This document shows, piece by piece, positions 36,881 through 63,279 of a DNA stretch of 64,000 nt (its first letter is position 1; each line of letters begins with the position of its first letter). Below the pieces are notes generated by a model. It was not told where the DNA came from, did no database searches, and saw only the letters and a list, made by a program, of their open reading frames with translations. This DNA comes from Chloroflexota bacterium (GTDB taxonomy: Bacteria > Chloroflexota > UBA11872), in NCBI GenBank assembly GCA_026707285.1, contig JAPOXD010000022.1, positions 1 through 64,000 of the forward strand, read 5' to 3'. The translations under genes and the position numbers were made by a program.

Positions 36881-39760
36881 ATGTATGGACGCCTGATGCC
36901 TAGTCGATCACGTGGGCGCCGGATGGGGCTGGCGGCCGTAGTCGCGGCGTTCACGGTGCTGCTGGCGCTCACACCCCAAGCCCGCGCGTTGGACTGTGAC
37001 GGCGTCGACCTCGGTGACGGCTGCCTCTTCACGATCACCGGCGGAGACACGCCTGAAACCGACGACGGCTACGCGGTGACCAATGTCCTCGGTGTACCAA
37101 TGTGGGACTTCGTGCGCGACAAGAGCGCGCAGGACATCGGCTACCCCATCAGTCAGCGCTGGGTCGAGGGCCCCTTCACCTTGCAGGCCTTCCAGAAGGT
37201 GATCCTGCAGTGGGATCCCGGCAAGCAGCGCATGAACTACTACAACACGCTGGACGTGCTGGCGAACCGCTATCCCGACGTCGAGTTGCCGTTCGTGCCG
37301 TCGCACCAGGTGCTGGAAGCAGATCGGGACGCGGACTTCGCCACCATCACGCGCAACCACCTGGCGCTACTGGACCAGAACGAGGCGATCAAGGACCAAT
37401 TCCTGAGCGAGCCCAATTGGCTGAATCTCTATGGGCTGCCGATCCGCTACGAGGAGCGGGAGGTCGATGGCCGGGCGGGCGGGGTGCAGATGCTGCGCGC
37501 CCAGCGCACGGTCTTCGTGGTCTGGAACGTGCCGGCCCCCGGCACCACCGTCGGCCGGGTGAATCTGCAAAACGTGCCGGACAAAGTGAAGAAGCTCAGC
37601 AACGTGATCATTCCCGAGGCGGCGAAGGTCCCGGCTACTCGTGACGGCAGAATCAACGCGGCGATCGAAGAAATCGCATGGGTTCAGGACGGCCTCGGAC
37701 ATGGTGAGGCAGTTCGAGTCGAGCAACTCCGCGAACTCGCCACATTGTCCCCGCCGGCCTTCTGGGCGCTCGTGCGGAACCGCGGCATCCATGCGACATC
37801 GGCATATAGCCGGGACCTAGAACCGACACGCACGGTTGGGGAAATCATTGGGCGGATCGGGTTCATAGCGCATACGAGTCCGGTAGCCGCCGAGATGCTC
37901 GCGACCATGCCGTTTCTCGACACGTTCGACGGGATTGATCTTGTGCCCTTGTCTACGCTGCTGATGATTGTGCTGCTTGCACCGGACGAACTGGAACCGA
38001 CCATCTCGCATTTGGCGTCGGTCGGGGGACTCACGGACGAACAGCGAACGTCCTTGCCGTTGCTCCATCTCAAGCTGAGGCATCCGGAGGCAGCCCGAGC
38101 GCTGGAAGCGCTGCCTTGGATTCAGGACGGGATTTCGCCACCGCCGCAAGACAATGACGGCAGTCCAATCGGACATAGCAACGAAGCTCACATGCTTACA
38201 TTTCTGATGGAATGGCAGCTGCGAGGATATCGGAGCCATCTTTCGGCGCTGCTAAGCCGCCCATGGTTTCAAGACGGCCTCGATCAACGCGAGCATGCGA
38301 TCGTATTCAATGTGATGTCGGAGATAACCTCCTTCGAACGACGGGCAGCTCTACAGATATTGAACATGCCATTTCTGCAAACTATAGGCGAAGGCGACTT
38401 GACCATCGTCGACATTCTCAACTCTGTCGCAGTCGAAGGCGATCTACAAGGCTTGTTGTCTCGGGCGGCGCTGCGCGATGGCATTCGGGACGGCCAGATA
38501 CCGCTCGTCGCGCTGGAGTATCTCAGTCTACGCAACCCAAGCGCGGCAGCGGCCATTCGGGCTGTGCCGTGGCTTCGGGATGGCATTTCAGTCACTGAAG
38601 TGGGACCTGTAGTAGCGCTGCAAAAGCTGGCGCTTGAATCGACGCAACTCTTGAAAGCAATCCTGGACAAAGACTGGGTGCTAGACGGCATCAATCCCGA
38701 CGAGCTATCCATAGTTAAGAGTCTTACGTATATGGTTAGCAGAGACGAATCCAGGGCTTTGAGTATCGTGCAAATGCCCTTTCTCGAAACTGTCGAAGCG
38801 GCGGACGACTCAGCCGTCGACCAATTGGCGCAATTCCATCACAACTCGACCCTTATGAGCTACTTGAATCACGTCCTCTCGCACCCGAACCTGGGCGGCG
38901 GCGCAAGAGATGAGCACGTGCCGCCCGTGACGGCGCTGCTCAGCGTCGCCTATCACGCCGATCCGGAGTCGCGCAGCTACCTATACAGAACGCTCCTGGA
39001 TCCCGACGCAGTAACCATTGAGCAACGGGTCATCACGCTGCCCCTTTCGGGGGACGTGCTATTGGCAGTAGTCCGCACACGAGACGGGGCGGCGAACAGC
39101 ATGGACTGGCTGGAGCGGTCGCTTCGCAGCCACGAGCACTTTATGGGCGTGGCTCTCCCGGGCAACTATGTCTCCATTCTAGTCGCGGATGTAGGGCGCG
39201 GAGGGGGTGGGCCAAGCGGCATTCTGTATTTCTCCGCAACACATCGTGAACCCGTCGGGGTAATTGCTCACGAGTCGGCGCATATCTACATGGCGTTTGC
39301 CCCACGTTGGCTGGCGGAAGGTGGGGCTACCTTCTTGGAGTGGATTGCGGTAAACCAGGGAGCGCCGCCGCACAATTTCAGGATTGGCGTCGACTCCTGT
39401 GAGTCCGCCCGAAGCCTGTCCGAGCTTGAGCAAAAGACGCCAAGCGTCATTGACTCGGGCTCAATCTGCCACTACAGCATGGGGTTTGGGCTGTTCTATG
39501 ACCTGTACAACAGCTTGGGAGATGCCGAATTCCGGCGAGGGTTTCGAGAACTGTATCTGAGGCTGCTTGCGAGCCCCACTTACTTCACCAGCTCCGAGGA
39601 ACGGAATCGCCTTTTGGATCGAGATCCCTCCGCATCCGAATGCAGTGGCGCGGAACGGATCCGTTGCTTCCTGCGAATTCAGTTTGTGGCGGGGGCGGCA
39701 GATCCGGCGATTGCGGCTATAGCGTCGGACGTAATCGACCGCTGGTACTACGGGCCGTAA
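36881..39760 (+). CDS. Exported gluzincin-like metallopeptidase with WxxDG/MPFL helical repeats
   Basis: About 959 aa. Signal peptide with GLAAVVAAFTVLLALTPQARA near the N-terminus. A GYPIS/FQKVILQWDP module (about residues 60-130) resembles that of the 5902 protein. Residues about 250-680 contain repeats around aromatic W-x-x-D-G motifs (Trp267, 413, 462, 564, 599) alternating with MPFLDT, MPFLQT and MPFLET helices. The C-terminal domain has HESAH (His797-His801), matching HExxH, and a Glu in RWLAEGGATFLEW (Glu813). This suits a zinc peptidase. The coding region is less GC-rich in its second half than the neighbours. ATG 36881 is chosen; ATG 36896, 36923 and TTG 36860 also fit. Repeat family not recognised. 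Confidence 0.75.
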   Translation: MYGRLMPSRSRGRRMGLAAVVAAFTVLLALTPQARALDCDGVDLGDGCLFTITGGDTPETDDGYAVTNVLGVPMWDFVRDKSAQDIGYPISQRWVEGPFTLQAFQKVILQWDPGKQRMNYYNTLDVLANRYPDVELPFVPSHQVLEADRDADFATITRNHLALLDQNEAIKDQFLSEPNWLNLYGLPIRYEEREVDGRAGGVQMLRAQRTVFVVWNVPAPGTTVGRVNLQNVPDKVKKLSNVIIPEAAKVPATRDGRINAAIEEIAWVQDGLGHGEAVRVEQLRELATLSPPAFWALVRNRGIHATSAYSRDLEPTRTVGEIIGRIGFIAHTSPVAAEMLATMPFLDTFDGIDLVPLSTLLMIVLLAPDELEPTISHLASVGGLTDEQRTSLPLLHLKLRHPEAARALEALPWIQDGISPPPQDNDGSPIGHSNEAHMLTFLMEWQLRGYRSHLSALLSRPWFQDGLDQREHAIVFNVMSEITSFERRAALQILNMPFLQTIGEGDLTIVDILNSVAVEGDLQGLLSRAALRDGIRDGQIPLVALEYLSLRNPSAAAAIRAVPWLRDGISVTEVGPVVALQKLALESTQLLKAILDKDWVLDGINPDELSIVKSLTYMVSRDESRALSIVQMPFLETVEAADDSAVDQLAQFHHNSTLMSYLNHVLSHPNLGGGARDEHVPPVTALLSVAYHADPESRSYLYRTLLDPDAVTIEQRVITLPLSGDVLLAVVRTRDGAANSMDWLERSLRSHEHFMGVALPGNYVSILVADVGRGGGGPSGILYFSATHREPVGVIAHESAHIYMAFAPRWLAEGGATFLEWIAVNQGAPPHNFRIGVDSCESARSLSELEQKTPSVIDSGSICHYSMGFGLFYDLYNSLGDAEFRRGFRELYLRLLASPTYFTSSEERNRLLDRDPSASECSGAERIRCFLRIQFVAGAADPAIAAIASDVIDRWYYGP

Positions 39761-39853
39761 GCCGTCGCTCGATAGCCGAGGACACCGCCGAGGCAGAGTG
39801 TCCGTGATCGTGGGGCAGGAAGTGGCAAACCCAAGTCACTCCGCACCCGCGCC

Positions 39854-39859
39854 TATACT
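39854..39859 (+). promoter_or_regulatory. Putative -10 box of the M20 peptidase gene
   Basis: TATACT, 30 nt before the ATG at 39889, the same spacing as at mtnA. Confidence 0.4.
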
Positions 39860-39888
39860 GCGGCGCTCCCTTCGCTGAGGATCCGCCC

Positions 39889-41034
39889 ATGTCCGCCCTG
39901 GTTTCGCGCCTGGCCGATCTCGTGGCGATCAACAGCGTCAACGCCAGCCTGCCCGGAGGCCCGGGCGAACAGGCCATGGCGGACTACGTGGCGCAGGCCG
40001 CGCGCGCCATGGGCGCGGAGGTGGAGCTGTATGAGGTCGAGCCGGGCCGTCCCAACCTGCTGGCCCGAATCGACCGCGGCCGCCCACGCACGCTGATGTT
40101 CGAGTGCCACCTGGACACGGTGGGGCTGGCGCCGATGCCCGACGCGCTGAATCCGCGCATCGAGGGCGGGCGGCTCTATGGACGCGGCTCCGCCGATCCC
40201 AAGGGTTCGCTGGCCGCCATGCTGAGCGTGCTGGAGAGCGCCGCCGCGGACCCGGCGTTCCCGGTCGATGTCTGGCTGGCGGGGTCCATGGACGAGGAGA
40301 TCACCATGCGCGGATCCCGGGCGCTGGCCGAGCGCCGGCCCGCCGTTGACGCGGTGATCGTGGGCGAGCCGACGAACTTGCAGCCCATCGTGGCGCACAA
40401 GGGCGTGCTGCGGTGGCGCGTGCGCACCACGGGCGTGGCGGCGCACAGCGCGACGCCGGAGCGCGGGCGCAACGCCATCTTCGACATGCAGACGGCAATC
40501 GGCGCGCTGCGCGCGGGCATCGAGCCCGGCCTCGCGCGGTCGTCGCATCCGCGCCTGGGTCCCGCGACCTGGAGCGTGGGCGTGATCGAGGGCGGCGAGG
40601 CGGTGAACGTGGTGCCGGACGCCTGCCAGATCGACTGCGACCGGCGGCTGCTGCCCGGCGAGGAGCCGGACGCGGTGCTTGCCGAGGTGGACCGGGCGCT
40701 CGATGAGGCGCGTCGGGTCGACGCCGGACTCCGGGTCGAGCGCGAGGCGCCCTACGTCCACGTGCCGCCGATGGAGACCGACGCTGATGAGCCAATCGTG
40801 CGCGCGACCGTGCAGGCGCTTACCGACGCCGGTCGCGATTCGACCCTGGCCGCCGTGGCCTACGCCACCGACGCCTCCATGCTGGCGTCCATCGGCGGGC
40901 TGCCCGCCGTCGTGCTGGGACCGGGGGACATTGCGCAGGCGCACACGAACGATGAATGGATCGAGTTGGCCGAGCTCGAGGCGGCCGTGGGCGTCTATCG
41001 CGGAATCTGCGAGGCCTTTGCCGATGCGGTCTGA
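39889..41034 (+). CDS. M20-family peptidase/deacylase (ArgE/DapE type)
   Basis: 381 aa. Metal-binding FECHLDTVGLAP (His and Asp), GRGSADPKGSLAAML, the catalytic Glu pair in AGSMDEEITM, and metal-ligand Glu in VGEPTN are typical of ArgE/DapE/CPG2. The dimerisation domain begins at HKGVLRWRVRTTGVAAHSA. ArgE, DapE or a dipeptidase are all possible; the neighbourhood does not decide. ATG 39889 follows a TATACT box. Confidence 0.85.
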   Translation: MSALVSRLADLVAINSVNASLPGGPGEQAMADYVAQAARAMGAEVELYEVEPGRPNLLARIDRGRPRTLMFECHLDTVGLAPMPDALNPRIEGGRLYGRGSADPKGSLAAMLSVLESAAADPAFPVDVWLAGSMDEEITMRGSRALAERRPAVDAVIVGEPTNLQPIVAHKGVLRWRVRTTGVAAHSATPERGRNAIFDMQTAIGALRAGIEPGLARSSHPRLGPATWSVGVIEGGEAVNVVPDACQIDCDRRLLPGEEPDAVLAEVDRALDEARRVDAGLRVEREAPYVHVPPMETDADEPIVRATVQALTDAGRDSTLAAVAYATDASMLASIGGLPAVVLGPGDIAQAHTNDEWIELAELEAAVGVYRGICEAFADAV

Positions 41035-47275: not shown

Positions 47276-48343
<1,068 letters not shown>

Positions 48344-48401: not shown

Positions 48402-48842
48402 CTAGTCGTTGCTGACTGTCACTTCACCTGTGCGGCCGTCGTAGGTCAACAGAAAGTGCTGCAGGAACGTCCGGCCGAGAAGCGCCTGATGGGGTTGCCC
48501 GCCAGCCGCAAGATGAACACCCGCGAACCGGCCATAGATTGTGAACGGCAGGAGCGGGATATGGATTTGTGCGACATGCACATTGAATTCGCTAGGACCG
48601 CTGACGCCACTCATCAGCCTCCGATCAACAATTGGCAGACCCAATTGGAGAGCGAGGCCGGCGTCAATACAGCTCTCAACCGCCCCCGTATCAACTAGGG
48701 CCAAATACACCGAGGATTCGAGAGTCGGCGACGGTCCGTCTGGGCGGAAGGATGCGTCGAAGCCAATCTGAACTCCGCGCGTCGGTCCGGAATCGAGTAG
48801 GAACTCTGGAAGACCCGGAAACCCGCAACTAGCTATCGGCAC
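48402..48842 (-). CDS. Retropepsin-like aspartic protease domain protein
   Basis: 146 aa. The catalytic-type aspartate is in LALVDTGAVESCID (DTGA), and the C-terminal LLGRTFLQHFLLTYDG matches the ILG-type psi-loop of retropepsins, so it would act as a homodimer. It has no signal peptide. It overlaps the small upstream gene by 14 nt on the same strand. The role is unknown; a physically linked regulator or a two-gene module are possible. Confidence 0.75.
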   Translation of the reverse strand: MPIASCGFPGLPEFLLDSGPTRGVQIGFDASFRPDGPSPTLESSVYLALVDTGAVESCIDAGLALQLGLPIVDRRLMSGVSGPSEFNVHVAQIHIPLLPFTIYGRFAGVHLAAGGQPHQALLGRTFLQHFLLTYDGRTGEVTVSND

Positions 48843-49077
48843 TGACCGGGTGAAAGAGAATCGACGCTGGCAGCGTTAGCGGCGGCTCACCAATCCGGCG
48901 AAGCAAGAACGGTCCGCGCCCAAAATTCCGCACGGCGATATCAGCGGCCTCCTGGAAGTCGTCGTACGTTCCGAACACCTCTTCATCGTGAACAATGCCC
49001 CATTGGCCGAAGTGATCGGCTTCAAGGACATTCCGCATGCGCTCGTAGGCGACAATCTCCTCAGACAGCTTCGCCAT
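48829..49077 (-). CDS. Small protein paired with the retropepsin
   Basis: 82 aa. EIVAYERMRNVLEADHFGQW, VHDEEVFGTYDDFQEAADIAV and FLLRRIGEPP form an alpha/beta pattern similar to DUF5678-like small proteins that often precede aspartyl-protease-like genes. ATG 49077. The 14-nt overlap with the retropepsin gene suggests coupled translation and a joint function. Confidence 0.65.
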   Translation of the reverse strand: MAKLSEEIVAYERMRNVLEADHFGQWGIVHDEEVFGTYDDFQEAADIAVRNFGRGPFLLRRIGEPPLTLPASILFHPVSADS

Positions 49078-49256: not shown

Positions 49257-50255
49257 TTAGCTCGCCAGGTATTCCCGCAGCGGACGTGCCGCCTGCGAGC
49301 GCTGGAGCTTGCGCAGCGCTTCGACCTGCAGCTGGCGGATGCGCTCGCGCGTGAGCCCGAAGTGGGCGCCGATTTCGTCCAGCGTCCAGGGCTCGTTGCC
49401 GTCCAGGCCGAAGCGCAGCGTCAGGATGGTGCGCTCGCGGTCGGGCAGGATGGCGAGGGCGCGGTCGACGTCGTCGCTGAGCGACTCCACGAGCAGTCGC
49501 CCGTCCGGCGCCTCGGGCTCGGGATCCTCCACGAAGTCCGACAGCGGCTCCTCGCCGTCTTCACCCACAGGCTGCTCCAGCGACATGGGCGAGCGTCCGG
49601 CGCGCACGATCTCGACGATGCGATTGGGATCGAGCTTCAGCACGTCGCCCAACTCCTCGGCCGTGGGGTTGCGCTCCAGCTGCGTGGCGAGGTCCGGCGC
49701 GATGCGGCGAATCTTGCGCAGCGTCTCGACGACGTGAACCGGCAAGCGCACGGTGCGCGAGTCGTTGGACAGCGACCGCGTGATCGCCTGCCGGATCCAC
49801 CAGGTGGCGTAGGTGCTGAACTTGAAGCCGCGGCGCCAGTCGAAACGCTCGACGGCCTGCATCAGGCCCAGATTGCCCTCCTGGATCAGGTCGAGCAGCG
49901 GCAGGCCGCCGGTGGCGTAGCGCTTGGCGACGTTGACCACCAGGCGCAGGTTCGCGCGGGTCAGGTGTGCGCGGGCTGTGTCGTCGCCGGCCTCGACGCG
50001 CTTGGCCAGCGCCACTTCCTCGGCGGCCGTGAGCAGTGGCACGCGGTTGATCTCGTTGAGATAGAGACGCAGCGTGTCTTCGATTGACGCACCGACGCCG
50101 GGTTGGGGCACCGGGCTCGGCTCGGACGCCCAACCCCCACTGCCGCCCGACGACGCCTCATCGCCGGCCGTGCTGTCACGCGGCTCGAGTTGCGAGAGCG
50201 CATCTTCCCAAGCGTTCGGGGCGGGAGAGGCCGACACGTCAGTCGCGGGTGCCAC
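49257..50255 (-). CDS. RNA polymerase sigma factor, RpoD/SigA type
   Basis: 332 aa. Region 1.2 EDTLRLYLNEINRVPLLTAAEE; region 2 LIQEGNLGLMQAVERFDWRRG and FSTYATWWIRQAITRSL (2.4); region 3 LPVHVVETLRKIRRI; region 4 LREREREI-type HTH, here WTLDEIGAHFGLTRERIRQLQ. The N-terminal region 1.1 is replaced by a short Ser/Pro-rich segment. It fits a group 1 or 2 sigma-70 factor. GTG 50255 with GAGGAAC upstream. Divergent from the Fe-S operon. Confidence 0.93.
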   Translation of the reverse strand: MAPATDVSASPAPNAWEDALSQLEPRDSTAGDEASSGGSGGWASEPSPVPQPGVGASIEDTLRLYLNEINRVPLLTAAEEVALAKRVEAGDDTARAHLTRANLRLVVNVAKRYATGGLPLLDLIQEGNLGLMQAVERFDWRRGFKFSTYATWWIRQAITRSLSNDSRTVRLPVHVVETLRKIRRIAPDLATQLERNPTAEELGDVLKLDPNRIVEIVRAGRSPMSLEQPVGEDGEEPLSDFVEDPEPEAPDGRLLVESLSDDVDRALAILPDRERTILTLRFGLDGNEPWTLDEIGAHFGLTRERIRQLQVEALRKLQRSQAARPLREYLAS

Positions 50256-59979: not shown

Positions 59980-60035
59980 GAGGTTGGCGTCGCAAGACTG
60001 CTAGTCACCGTCCGCTGTGGCCGACCGTCTCGATA

Positions 60036-60078
60036 CAAAAAACACCGGGTTGAGGCCCGAATGAGGCCTGACCCGGTG
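60036..60078 (-). terminator. Terminator after the toxin gene
   Basis: On the minus strand CACCGGGT ... ACCCGGTG encloses an inner AGGCC/GGCCT hairpin, then TTTTTTG (60037-60042). It ends the DUF6941-antitoxin-toxin operon, 119 nt after the toxin stop. The GC-rich structured segment between (60079-60196) has no coding evidence. Confidence 0.7.
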
Positions 60079-60196
60079 GAGGTGGCCGAATTGTTGGCCG
60101 CCGTTGGTTTCCGGAGCAACAAGCGTGACGGATCCAGAACTCCCGGCCCCGGCGTTCGGACAACTTGGGTCGGCGGACTGCGTGAGTTGCGTGGCG

Positions 60197-60487
60197 CTAT
60201 CCGAAGAGGTCGGAATGGGTTCCGGTCCGAGCGAGAATCAGTTCCTCATGCCCCATGGCCCACACAAGAAGCCAGTCAGGTTCGATATGGCATTCCCAAT
60301 AGTCGGACCAGCTGCCGCGCAGCCGATGTGGGCGATGCCGCGGAGCTAGCTCAACCCCATCCCGCAGTTGCCGGACAACCGCCCACAGCTTTTCCAGGTC
60401 TTTGCCACGTCGCTTGGCGCGCTTCACGTCGCGCTGGAATCTTGTCGTGAGCGCGACGTTCACGCTAGCTGTCCGGCGCTTCGGCAA
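60197..60487 (-). CDS. YafQ-type mRNA interferase toxin
   Basis: About 96 aa, or 88 from GTG 60463. The RelE/ParE fold has TTRFQRDVKRAKRRGKDLEKLW at the N-terminus, DYWECHIEPDWLLVWAMG, and the C-terminal RTGTHSDLFG, which is characteristic of YafQ. Such toxins cut mRNA at the ribosome. It follows the antitoxin directly: the antitoxin stop (60465) is 1 nt from GTG 60463 or overlaps the longer TTG 60487 frame. A terminator lies downstream. Confidence 0.85.
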   Translation of the reverse strand: MPKRRTASVNVALTTRFQRDVKRAKRRGKDLEKLWAVVRQLRDGVELAPRHRPHRLRGSWSDYWECHIEPDWLLVWAMGHEELILARTGTHSDLFG

Positions 60488-60716
60488 ACCTTTCGCAATC
60501 CGAAATCAGCTCACCAAGGCTGCTGTAGCGAACGATGCCCTCGCCGCGCTCAATTTCCTTGAGCACCTGAGCCGTCTCGGGATTCGGCGTTCGTGGCTGT
60601 ACTGGCACGGCCAGAGAAATGCGGATATTGGTGATTTTGATTTGGGGCGTGACGACTTCGGGGCTGGGTAGCGACAGTGGTGATTCGTGGGTTTTGATAC
60701 TCAGACTTGCCGTCAT
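60465..60716 (-). CDS. RelB/DinJ-like antitoxin
   Basis: 83 aa. The C-terminal half (TPNPETAQVLKEIERGEGIV, RYSSLGELISDCERF) matches the toxin-wrapping tail of RelB/DinJ antitoxins. The N-terminal 45 residues are unlike a typical ribbon-helix-helix, and are rich in Pro, Ser and beta-forming residues. It sits 3 nt after the DUF6941-like gene and just before the YafQ toxin gene. Confidence 0.7.
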   Translation of the reverse strand: MTASLSIKTHESPLSLPSPEVVTPQIKITNIRISLAVPVQPRTPNPETAQVLKEIERGEGIVRYSSLGELISDCERFAEAPDS

Positions 60717-60719
60717 GGC

Positions 60720-61139
60720 CTATGCCTCCTGTGAGCGATTGCTCGACCTCTCCGTTAGCCGAAATGAGACCGTCGCTTTCTCGTCGTCGCCGATGAGGAT
60801 ATGGAAAGCATAGTCCCCGGCATGTGGAAAGGTGATAGGTGGGATCGGAAATGGAATGTATACGGAGTGCGGAGCAGCGCGGACGCTTGGCTGACTAACC
60901 TCAAGATCTCCCTCGATCGCCAAGAGCTGATTCGCATCGGCATCGAGCAAACTGATCCGGCATTGTCTCGTTTGCCCGAATTCGGCAGGCGAAGCCGTAA
61001 GCCCGATGACCAAAACCATCGCCGGATGGACTGCAGGGAAGCTGGCAGCGTAAATGTTGTCGAACGCGCCCAGAACATTGAGTTTGCCCTCTTGCGAGAT
61101 GTTTGCAGAGTCAGCGAGAAGAGCTAGCGGGACGTCCAT
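60720..61139 (-). CDS. DUF6941-like protein
   Basis: 139 aa. The N-terminus LALLADSANISQEGKLNVLGAF-like (LADSANISQEGKLNVLGAFD) and the C-terminal HAGDYAFHILIGDDEKATVSF resemble the DUF6941 family of small beta-rich proteins of unknown role, which occur widely with variable neighbours. It is the first gene of an operon with the RelB/YafQ pair (3 nt gap). A perfect TATAAT lies 45 nt upstream on the minus strand. It belongs to a less GC-rich islet, so it may be horizontally acquired. Confidence 0.65.
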   Translation of the reverse strand: MDVPLALLADSANISQEGKLNVLGAFDNIYAASFPAVHPAMVLVIGLTASPAEFGQTRQCRISLLDADANQLLAIEGDLEVSQPSVRAAPHSVYIPFPIPPITFPHAGDYAFHILIGDDEKATVSFRLTERSSNRSQEA

Positions 61140-61183
61140 TGGCCCCCAAGTGATGTGCCCCAGTCACGGGCGAAAGGAGCGGA

Positions 61184-61189
61184 ATTATA
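61184..61189 (-). promoter_or_regulatory. Perfect TATAAT -10 box
   Basis: Minus-strand TATAAT, 45 nt before the ATG of the DUF6941-like gene. No good -35 is visible 16-18 nt upstream. It is the only exact TATAAT promoter-like site noticed in the window. Confidence 0.5.
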
Positions 61190-61299
61190 CGGGTTCGCGC
61201 CAAGGGCCGCCCGTAGACAGGAGTCGCCCATTGCTCTTGGCTCTCGTCCCGCGCTGTCCTTCAGGGTCAGTCTCGCCGGTGACCCCGTGCGCAACTCAG

Positions 61300-61450
61300 T
61301 GGGAAAACCCACCAAAGCCGAGCAGGCCAGATTATGCCGCGCGGAGCGAGATTCTCAGCGGGGCGAGCCATCTCGCGAACCTCGGCGGAGTTCGTCACCA
61401 GCACGGTGCCGAGAATATACGGCATAGCCCCTAAGGCTGTATGGCCTTGG
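61300..61450 (-). pseudogene. VapC (PIN domain) C-terminal remnant
   Basis: Minus-strand frame with ALGAMPYILGTVLVTNSAEV followed by REMARPAENLAPRGI, resembling the C-terminal AAxA...LGxxLVTxNxxEF...ENW part of VapC toxins. There is no catalytic N-terminal part and no adjacent antitoxin. The 442-nt gap between the DUF6941-like gene and the glycoside-hydrolase-like gene otherwise has no supported feature. Confidence 0.4.
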
Positions 61451-61581
61451 TGCGTTAAGGCGAATCGAGGCACTTCGCGGAGTCACGCATGCCTTGCTGG
61501 AGCTTGCCGGTGCCGCCTGTCTGCGGGACGTAGGCCTATAGTTTCAGCACAGGCGTAAGCCACGCGGAAAGACAACACCCC

Positions 61582-63279
61582 ATGCAGCCATTCGAGCTCT
61601 CGGCCGAGCATTTGGCCGCGGTGGAGCGGCGGCGGCGGATCGTGGTGCGGTATGACATCACCGGCGATCCTAAGGACTTCGTGGGCCAGCCGCCTCCGCC
61701 GGAGCAGCTGACGAAGTGGTGGGACGCGCAGCTGAGCCTGCAGGACATGCCGGGCACGCAGATCGATACGATCATCTGGTGGTCGGAGGGCGGGCTGGAG
61801 GCCTCGTTCGAGAGCGACGTGCGACCCGTCGGGGAGTGGATCCAGAACTGGGTCGCGGCCGGCGTCGAGATTCCGTCCCTGGCCCTGGAGCAGGCGCGGC
61901 GCCGCGGCATCGAGTCCTTCTATCAGCTCGCCATGAACGGCTACGACGTGGGCTGGGACGGGACCAAGATCGTGCCCATGTCGATTCCGATGAAGGCGGC
62001 GCATCCCGAGTGGCTCATGTGGCCCTACGGCCCCGTCGAGGGCGGCTACATGAACTACGCCGAGCCGGGCGTGCGGGACTACGTCGCCGAGATCGTGCGC
62101 GAGGTGGCCTGGCGCTTCGACCACGACGGCATCAACCTTGACTTCGCGCGCCTGGACATCTTGATGCCGGCGGGGCAGCAGTGGGAGCTGCGCGAGCACC
62201 TCAACGACCTGATGCGCACGGTGCGGGCGGTGCTGCTGGAGCGGGAGCGCGTGCGCGGGCGGCCCTATCTGCTGAGCGTGCAGATCCCGCCCGACGTGGT
62301 GAGCTGCCACGCCACCGGCATCGACATCGAGACCTGGGTGCGCGAGGGCCTGGTGGACCTCCTGATCCTCGGCTGCCGCACCTTCGACGTCGACGTGCGC
62401 GACTTCCGGCGCCTGACCGCGGGCCATCCGGTGAAGCTGTTCCCGTGCATAGACGCGCACCACTCCAGCGACGGCTATTTCCACCCGTCGCTGGAGGTGC
62501 AGCGCGGCGCGGCGTCCAACTGGCTGCACCAGGGCGCCGACGGCGTCTGCACCTTCAACTACCCCGACCGCACGCCGGAATCGGCCCGGCGCGCCGGCAC
62601 CTACATCGAGCTGATGGACACCGACTACTGGTGCGGCTGCATGCAGGCGCAGCGCGAGCTGGGCGCGCCAGAGACGCTGCGCCGCACCGACAAGGTGTTC
62701 TTCGCCGAGCGGCGCGGCGGCGGGCATTTCATGATTCCGCCGCCCGAGGACTGGAGCACGCCGCGGGCGATGTTCCTCAACACCAACCTGCTGGCGCCGC
62801 TGCCGGCGCTGCTGCCGAACATCCCCACCGGCACGCCGCAGCCCAAGGAGGAGTGGCCCGGACCGCCCAACCAGTCGAGCGACTACCGCGACCGCAAGGT
62901 GGACACCTTCGTGCGCGTGTGGGTGGGCGACGACGTGAACGCGGAGGCGGAGGCCGTGCGCTCAATCACCGTGCGCGCGGTGCTGTCCGACGAGGACGGG
63001 TCGGACGGCGAGCGGCTCGATCCGGTGCTGCTGGCGACGAAGTACCGCGACCTCTACAACCGCCCGCCGCTGACCGACGTGGTCGAGCGCATCGAGCTGC
63101 GGATCAACAACATCCTGCTGCCGCCGCCGACCGTCGAGGACGGCTGGCTGGTCTTCGAGGCCAAGCCGGCGTTCCTGGCGCACGGCGAGAACCTGGTGGG
63201 CGTGTGGGTCAACCCGCCGGACGAGATCGCCGAGCGGCTCACATTGGAGAAGCTGGAGATCCACGTCGGATATCGGTAG
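61582..63279 (+). CDS. Glycoside-hydrolase-like protein, function unknown
   Basis: 565 aa. No signal peptide. N-terminal region resembles a TIM-barrel: the strand DHDGINLDFARLDI carries acidic residues as in GH families, and IIWWSEGG, LFPCIDAHHSSDG and WLHQGADGVCTFNYPD follow. The C-terminal third (FVRVWVGDDVNAEAEAV, LRINNILLPPPTVEDGWLVF) is a beta-sandwich. The family looks like uncharacterised GHL proteins. Catalytic residues cannot be fixed. ATG 61582. It lies beside a truncated amidohydrolase, on the opposite strand. Confidence 0.65.
   Translation: MQPFELSAEHLAAVERRRRIVVRYDITGDPKDFVGQPPPPEQLTKWWDAQLSLQDMPGTQIDTIIWWSEGGLEASFESDVRPVGEWIQNWVAAGVEIPSLALEQARRRGIESFYQLAMNGYDVGWDGTKIVPMSIPMKAAHPEWLMWPYGPVEGGYMNYAEPGVRDYVAEIVREVAWRFDHDGINLDFARLDILMPAGQQWELREHLNDLMRTVRAVLLERERVRGRPYLLSVQIPPDVVSCHATGIDIETWVREGLVDLLILGCRTFDVDVRDFRRLTAGHPVKLFPCIDAHHSSDGYFHPSLEVQRGAASNWLHQGADGVCTFNYPDRTPESARRAGTYIELMDTDYWCGCMQAQRELGAPETLRRTDKVFFAERRGGGHFMIPPPEDWSTPRAMFLNTNLLAPLPALLPNIPTGTPQPKEEWPGPPNQSSDYRDRKVDTFVRVWVGDDVNAEAEAVRSITVRAVLSDEDGSDGERLDPVLLATKYRDLYNRPPLTDVVERIELRINNILLPPPTVEDGWLVFEAKPAFLAHGENLVGVWVNPPDEIAERLTLEKLEIHVGYR

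Follow-up and report, generated by a model that had tools for sequence, protein, structure and literature searches.

A DUF5678-like gene and a retropepsin-like protease gene paired in a Chloroflexota genome and across bacterial phyla

The two genes and their products

The window analyzed here is a stretch of 64,000 nucleotides from a Chloroflexota bacterium. On its minus strand lie two small genes, S and R. S (48829..49077) begins with ATG and encodes a protein of 82 aa, and R (48402..48842) begins with GTG and encodes a protein of 146 aa. The two frames overlap by 14 nt (48829..48842), where S ends and R begins. This arrangement had been described in an original prediction made from the letters of the DNA, and the list of open reading frames confirms both frames and their overlap. 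The pair is flanked by a gene that we take from its translation to be nadA (plus strand, end at 48343) and by a gene that we read in the same way as a sigma-factor gene (minus strand, 49257-50255). Codon differences from the sister genome G003 (dN 0.049 and dS 0.27 for S; dN 0.053 and dS 0.36 for R) point to purifying selection on both genes. The GC3 of S (0.68) and R (0.62) is well under the values of nadA (0.93) and the sigma gene (0.89), in keeping with a recent arrival of the pair in this genome. Elsewhere in the window, GC falls to 0.593 at 38001-40000 and to 0.614 at 60001-62000 against about 0.70 in the remainder, and these intervals may contain other acquired stretches.

Sequence and predicted structure together identify R as a probable single-domain retropepsin-like aspartic protease. 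The DTGA and LLG motifs named in the prediction are both in place: the first lies in ALVDTGAVESCID, where D51-T52-G53 (codons at 48684..48692) are the predicted catalytic residues, and the second in ALLGR, where L121-L122-G123 (48474..48482) form the hydrophobic-hydrophobic-glycine motif. In an alignment of 53 R proteins, D51-T52-G53 is invariant in all 53, G123 and R124 are invariant as well, and L121 is kept at 90% or more. Matches of R to curated families are weak. For example, it reaches 25.4 bits with PF13975 (E=2.2e-5; curated cut-off 28.2) and 24.2 bits with PF13650 (E=5.5e-5; cut-off 24.3), or 24.3 bits with the frame joined. The Pfam model RVP also matches weakly, and among NCBIfam models TIGR03698 (E=2e-4, 21.6 bits) is far under its curated cut-off of 57.35 and TIGR02281 far under its own. 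A profile of the 53 R relatives searched against the PDB finds HIV-1 protease (E 7.7e-5) and Ddi1 (E 6e-4). The AlphaFold2 model of R has a pLDDT of 95.3 and comes structurally nearest to Rickettsia APRc (5c9f; Z 10.7, rmsd 2.5, 116 aligned), followed by EIAV protease (1fmb; Z 10.4). These matches agree with the stand-alone bacterial retropepsin that had been proposed. The structures of S and R were each predicted separately as a single chain. Because each chain of R has one catalytic Asp, R should need to form a homodimer for activity, with each chain giving one such residue.

By eye, neither R nor S has a hydrophobic N-terminal segment, in keeping with the proposed lack of a secretion signal, and R has no membrane segment. 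None of the 53 R proteins matches PHROGs. PF05618, which we take to be the Pfam model for the RimB/RloA family, does not match R in the Pfam search at E<=10.

S is best described as a divergent relative of DUF5678, judging from its family. The S of the window itself matches nothing in Pfam, NCBIfam or PHROG, and finds no DUF5678 match in Pfam at E<=10 or E<=1. Calling it DUF5678-like was nevertheless fair, as 40 of 68 aligned S relatives match DUF5678 (PF18929) weakly (best 3e-5), and in genome searches the DUF5678 model exceeds its cut-off at S genes in G008, G009, G027 and G099. Two phage families in PHROGs are weakly matched by 8/68 and 6/68 S proteins, and PADLOC gives no meaningful match to S. 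No DNA-binding domain is recognizable among the 68 S proteins in Pfam, nor in PHROGs or PADLOC. The model of S (pLDDT 83.4) consists of a helix (2-22), two strands (26-30 and 33-38), a second helix (41-52), a third strand (58-61) and a low-confidence tail. Against the PDB, Foldseek finds nothing under E 0.7 and the top Z is 3.7, so that no fold relative is claimed. The strongest conserved block of S is FGRGPFLLR (residues 52-60; 48898..48924). The pattern used in the scan for S lies in this block, and its conservation in the S alignment is therefore partly selected.

The C-terminal tail of S (residues 64-82; 48832..48888) is predicted with low confidence (pLDDT 48-55 for residues 71-82), yet it contains a conserved LPAS-x-x-Y stretch, whose mean of 2.5 bits over residues 69-76 is on par with the folded helices. 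A tail that is conserved but modeled with low confidence counts in favor of an inhibitor-like S. It could also belong to a substrate or propeptide-like ligand, in which case R would cut the tail of S and cleavage would be the signal. Retropepsins accept extended hydrophobic peptides of the kind found in this tail. However, the tail is retained in S copies without R, and it is different in an NPWTP subgroup of S that still has R, and we regard cleavage of S as an improbable role for the pair.

Pairing of S and R

The most direct measure of the pairing comes from R matches that were not chosen for S. S lies directly upstream in 56 of 62 such matches, and because of this we conclude that S and R are a real two-gene unit. 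This total has three sources. In a profile search of 41 genomes of the window's class, 36 of 40 R matches have a same-strand S upstream, the exceptions being G004:C43, G017:C426, G013:C98 and G010:C89; the 36 include both halves of one broken gene, and at G014:C24 an insert of about 1 kb lies between S and the half of R that was matched. Among 50 genomes from many groups, a set chosen for holding an S locus, 10 of 56 R matches lie away from known S loci, and all 10 have a divergent S directly upstream. On viral contigs, S is upstream at 10 of 12 R loci (L270 and L271 are without it). By our own arithmetic, an S placed at random would fall into such a 400-nt stretch in about one case in ten thousand.

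Searches that start from S give a similar picture. Among the 61 genomes nearest to the window's, 20 contain S and 19 contain R. Class-wide, 33 of 45 strong S matches are paired and 12 are without R. A scan of genome contigs with a profile of 8 S proteins (a divergent profile of 25 was too diverse) has an R match at 63 of 79 S loci, complete at 54 and partial or split at 9; counts of this type cannot reveal the loss of S. A start codon offers the 14-nt overlap in 32 of 59 examinable pairs, and any of 13 other offsets in 6 at most. The distances of S and R correlate over 54 pairs (r=0.66; none of 2000 shuffles gave as high a value), as is expected if the two genes travel as a unit. Tandem S-S-R and S-R-S-R arrays are also present among the loci. 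The dN/dS of both genes, the order and strand kept across phyla and the recurring 14-nt register thus indicate more than a chance association. An in-frame S-R fusion at L069 was dropped as evidence, since the closely related L074 has no fusion and the joined frame may stem from a frameshift or an assembly error within the overlap.

The unit appears to have no third member. In the first 30 flank clusters listed, no family beyond S, R and antisense frames occurs in more than 6 of the 79 loci. These flanks also bear on an origin in a retroelement. Pfam names the family of R gag-polyprotein putative aspartyl protease, and the pair could accordingly be a remnant of a domesticated element of the gag-pol type, with no dedicated joint function. 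Such a remnant is already disfavored and seems very improbable, as the first 30 clusters show neither a reverse transcriptase nor any other third gene in common, none of the 68 S proteins has a Gag-like match in Pfam, and both genes are under apparent purifying selection.

The original prediction spoke of a conserved two-gene module, and a comparison of neighborhoods bears this out, as the pair recurs in other genomes, in the same order and on the same strand, across phyla. The 79 S loci come from Chloroflexota/Dehalococcoidia, Acidobacteria, Alpha-, Beta-, Gamma- and Deltaproteobacteria, Binatia, Dadabacteria, Spirochaetia, Latescibacterota, Rhodothermales, Eremiobacterota and others. Three frames of 411-469 aa (L275, L276 and L277) have an S-like match near the C-terminal end, and no retropepsin was seen downstream of them.

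The order of a DUF5678-like gene followed by a retropepsin gene extends beyond the subfamily of the window, because DUF5678 genes outside the S family and S-like genes precede other retropepsin subfamilies. In the window's class, a retropepsin of another subfamily follows DUF5678 genes outside the S family in 6 of 6 loci read (L185-L189 and L191). In a second set, a retropepsin follows in 6 of 7 DUF5678 loci (L245, L246, L247, L249, L250 and L252, but not L251), a count that excludes the S locus L248 and includes L247, which is also one of the 10 extra R loci above. In 9 of 20 weak-S regions (L281-L286, L289, L290 and L292), the S-like gene is followed by a protease of the DTGF type. R itself weakly matches the TIGR03698 / clan AA DTGF proteases, which in the class likewise follow an S-like gene, and differs from them in having DTGA instead of DTGF.

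At one of these loci (L246, 1105-2775, minus strand) DUF5678 is located at the C-terminal end of an aspartate-semialdehyde dehydrogenase (PF18929 E 9.9e-8), directly upstream of a retropepsin (RVP) gene, which suggests that a metabolic enzyme can carry DUF5678 as one of its domains. This locus counts against a role of the pair in conflict and is better explained if S is an adaptor. S would then recruit substrates to R, or be a tag that R recognizes, with no inhibition involved; DUF5678 on larger proteins would mark them for cleavage, and the whole would be ordinary regulated proteolysis as for PerP. A natural fusion of S to DUF6998 (L121, 3986-4693; PF22522 E 5.9e-35) agrees with an adaptor, as does the involvement of other protein factors with known bacterial A2 peptidases, as described in the introduction of the RimB paper (PMC11957791). 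On the other hand, most S proteins stand alone and have genes that pair one-to-one with R, a housekeeping adaptor would not usually be mobile or carried by phages (see below), and no shared substrate gene is found near the 79 loci in the first 30 flank clusters listed. We consider the adaptor unlikely, although it is the least unlikely of the alternatives to regulation of R by S.

Mobility and genomic context

The distribution of the pair argues for its movement between phyla. A tree of 52 joined S-R pairs mixes phyla; Alphaproteobacteria account for 9 changes, at least 6 of them forced by supported branches. Within the genus of the window, the site between nadA and the sigma gene is without S and R in 3 of 6 genomes (G001, G002 and G005), G003 has both genes, and G004 keeps S and has lost most of R. 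The window's genome contains a second, divergent S-R pair (L057, 1107-1797, contig C53), which is also present in G003 and G004; the gene downstream of it is presumably dihydrodipicolinate synthase-like.

The pair is present on contigs of temperate phages. A profile search finds S on ten IMG/VR contigs, and complete S-R pairs occur on the viral contigs L254 and L258-L261, of which L254, L259 and L261 also carry RecT-like, exonuclease or integrase genes. On a further contig (L257), a lone S adjoins terminase and portal genes. Searches with single sequences find no S or R match in PLSDB plasmids or GenBank phages, and the single-sequence query with R finds none on the viral contigs, where profiles later found the viral loci. 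A lone S-like protein is encoded on a 441-kb viral contig (L262, 3770-4243).

Some loci have neighbors of the defense type, in single cases drawn from the 16 loci without R plus a few others. In L090, S and R lie between a BPTD_3080 restriction endonuclease gene (NF046055) and a type III methyltransferase gene. L103 has the same kind of operon, in which S is followed by an overlapping TIGR04255 gene in place of R. The same S-TIGR04255 order is found in L081, flanked on either side by homologous large genes that NCBIfam does not type there. Downstream of other S copies without R are HicAB (L079), a HipA-like kinase (L118), an NYN protein (L098) and GmrSD_N (L120).

By our own count, R is broken and S intact at 9 loci, and R is without a recognized S at 3 (G004:C43, G017:C426 and G013:C98). 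Asymmetry of decay was rejected as proof of addiction, since R is 1.8 times longer than S.

A possible role for the pair

Cytoplasmic bacterial retropepsins are widespread in databases, and few have a known role. A type II toxin-antitoxin system is one arrangement that the pair resembles: two small, overlapping and co-directed genes, with the partner upstream, sporadic and mobile, and HicAB and HipA-like genes near S in single loci. It differs in that S has no recognizable DNA-binding domain. To our knowledge, a protease would be unusual as the effector of a type II system.

Some bacterial retropepsins (APRc, RimB and RloA) are already known. APRc (RC1339) of Rickettsia conorii has, like R, a single-domain retropepsin fold with D-T/S-G and hydrophobic-hydrophobic-Gly motifs, and is 16% identical to R in the aligned part. 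The APRc paper reports dimers and Asp-dependent activity, discusses APRc with transmembrane helices and as the soluble part of a larger protein, and does not contain the words operon and partner (PMC4140852); R, in contrast, appears by eye to have no membrane segment. RimB and RloA of Pseudomonas work with partner genes, according to the abstracts of two papers (PMC11957791, PMC12239564). Their partners are RimA/RimK or RloB/RloC, as opposed to the DUF5678-like S of R, their targets are glutamate-rich, and RloA is secreted. The open-access literature searched yielded nothing on the S-R pair, on the function of DUF5678 or on a retropepsin toxin-antitoxin pair, and the sole paper with the word DUF5678 is unrelated by its title and abstract. 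The pair seems undescribed so far.

The strict order of S and R, the kept overlap, the one-to-one pairing over divergent versions and the absence of a third gene make S the probable protein partner of R. Our preferred reading, which we hold at slightly less than even odds (a probability of about 0.45), is that S is a dedicated protein regulator of R, most likely inhibitor- or antitoxin-like, within an autonomous mobile operon. An inhibitor is ranked first since a retropepsin that is free in the cytoplasm has to be controlled, most simply by a partner that is translated ahead of it from a shared message. It is envisaged that S and R would form an autonomous, horizontally mobile operon of two genes, that S would be made first from a message shared with R, and that the 14-nt overlap would couple the translation of R to that of S. 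R would work in the cytoplasm as a homodimer. S would bind R and hold it in check, possibly via its conserved flexible tail, and R would be released or aimed once S disappears, is titrated away or is altered, as might happen under stress or phage attack; both this trigger and the target of R are conjectural.

Several observations count against an antitoxin-like S. S also occurs without R (12/45 of the strong class-wide matches) and keeps its tail in that state; it is without a recognizable DNA-binding domain, and the 9 and 3 cases of decay are not a clear asymmetry. The lack of a match in GenBank phages and PLSDB plasmids with the queries used counts in the same direction. Mobility, phage carriage, restriction-modification neighbors, the place of the pair in a restriction-modification operon and the occurrence of S with other partners favor a role in conflict. 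With regard to the two roles suggested in the original prediction, a regulated cytoplasmic protease or a toxin-antitoxin-like pair, the evidence leans towards an accessory conflict-type module.

A broader form of such a role would make S a sensor or antitoxin domain of an exchangeable kind, joined by bacteria and phages to various effectors, and the S-R pair an unnamed defense or toxin-antitoxin system, executed by a protease, in many phyla. The effectors would be a retropepsin most often and, in single cases, TIGR04255, a protein with an NYN domain or DUF6998 fused to S. Both the exchangeable domain and this range of effectors are doubtful. Regulation of R by S, as preferred here, is open to study with S and R as a pair, which could reveal a conflict system with an HIV-protease-like effector. 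A strict and mobile partnership with one small family would also be a first functional lead for DUF5678.

The window's genome encodes a third retropepsin-like protein of 118 aa (L142, 1444-1800, contig C23). No S was noticed beside it, and its neighbors are genes that we take to be antitoxin genes of the HigA and Phd types.
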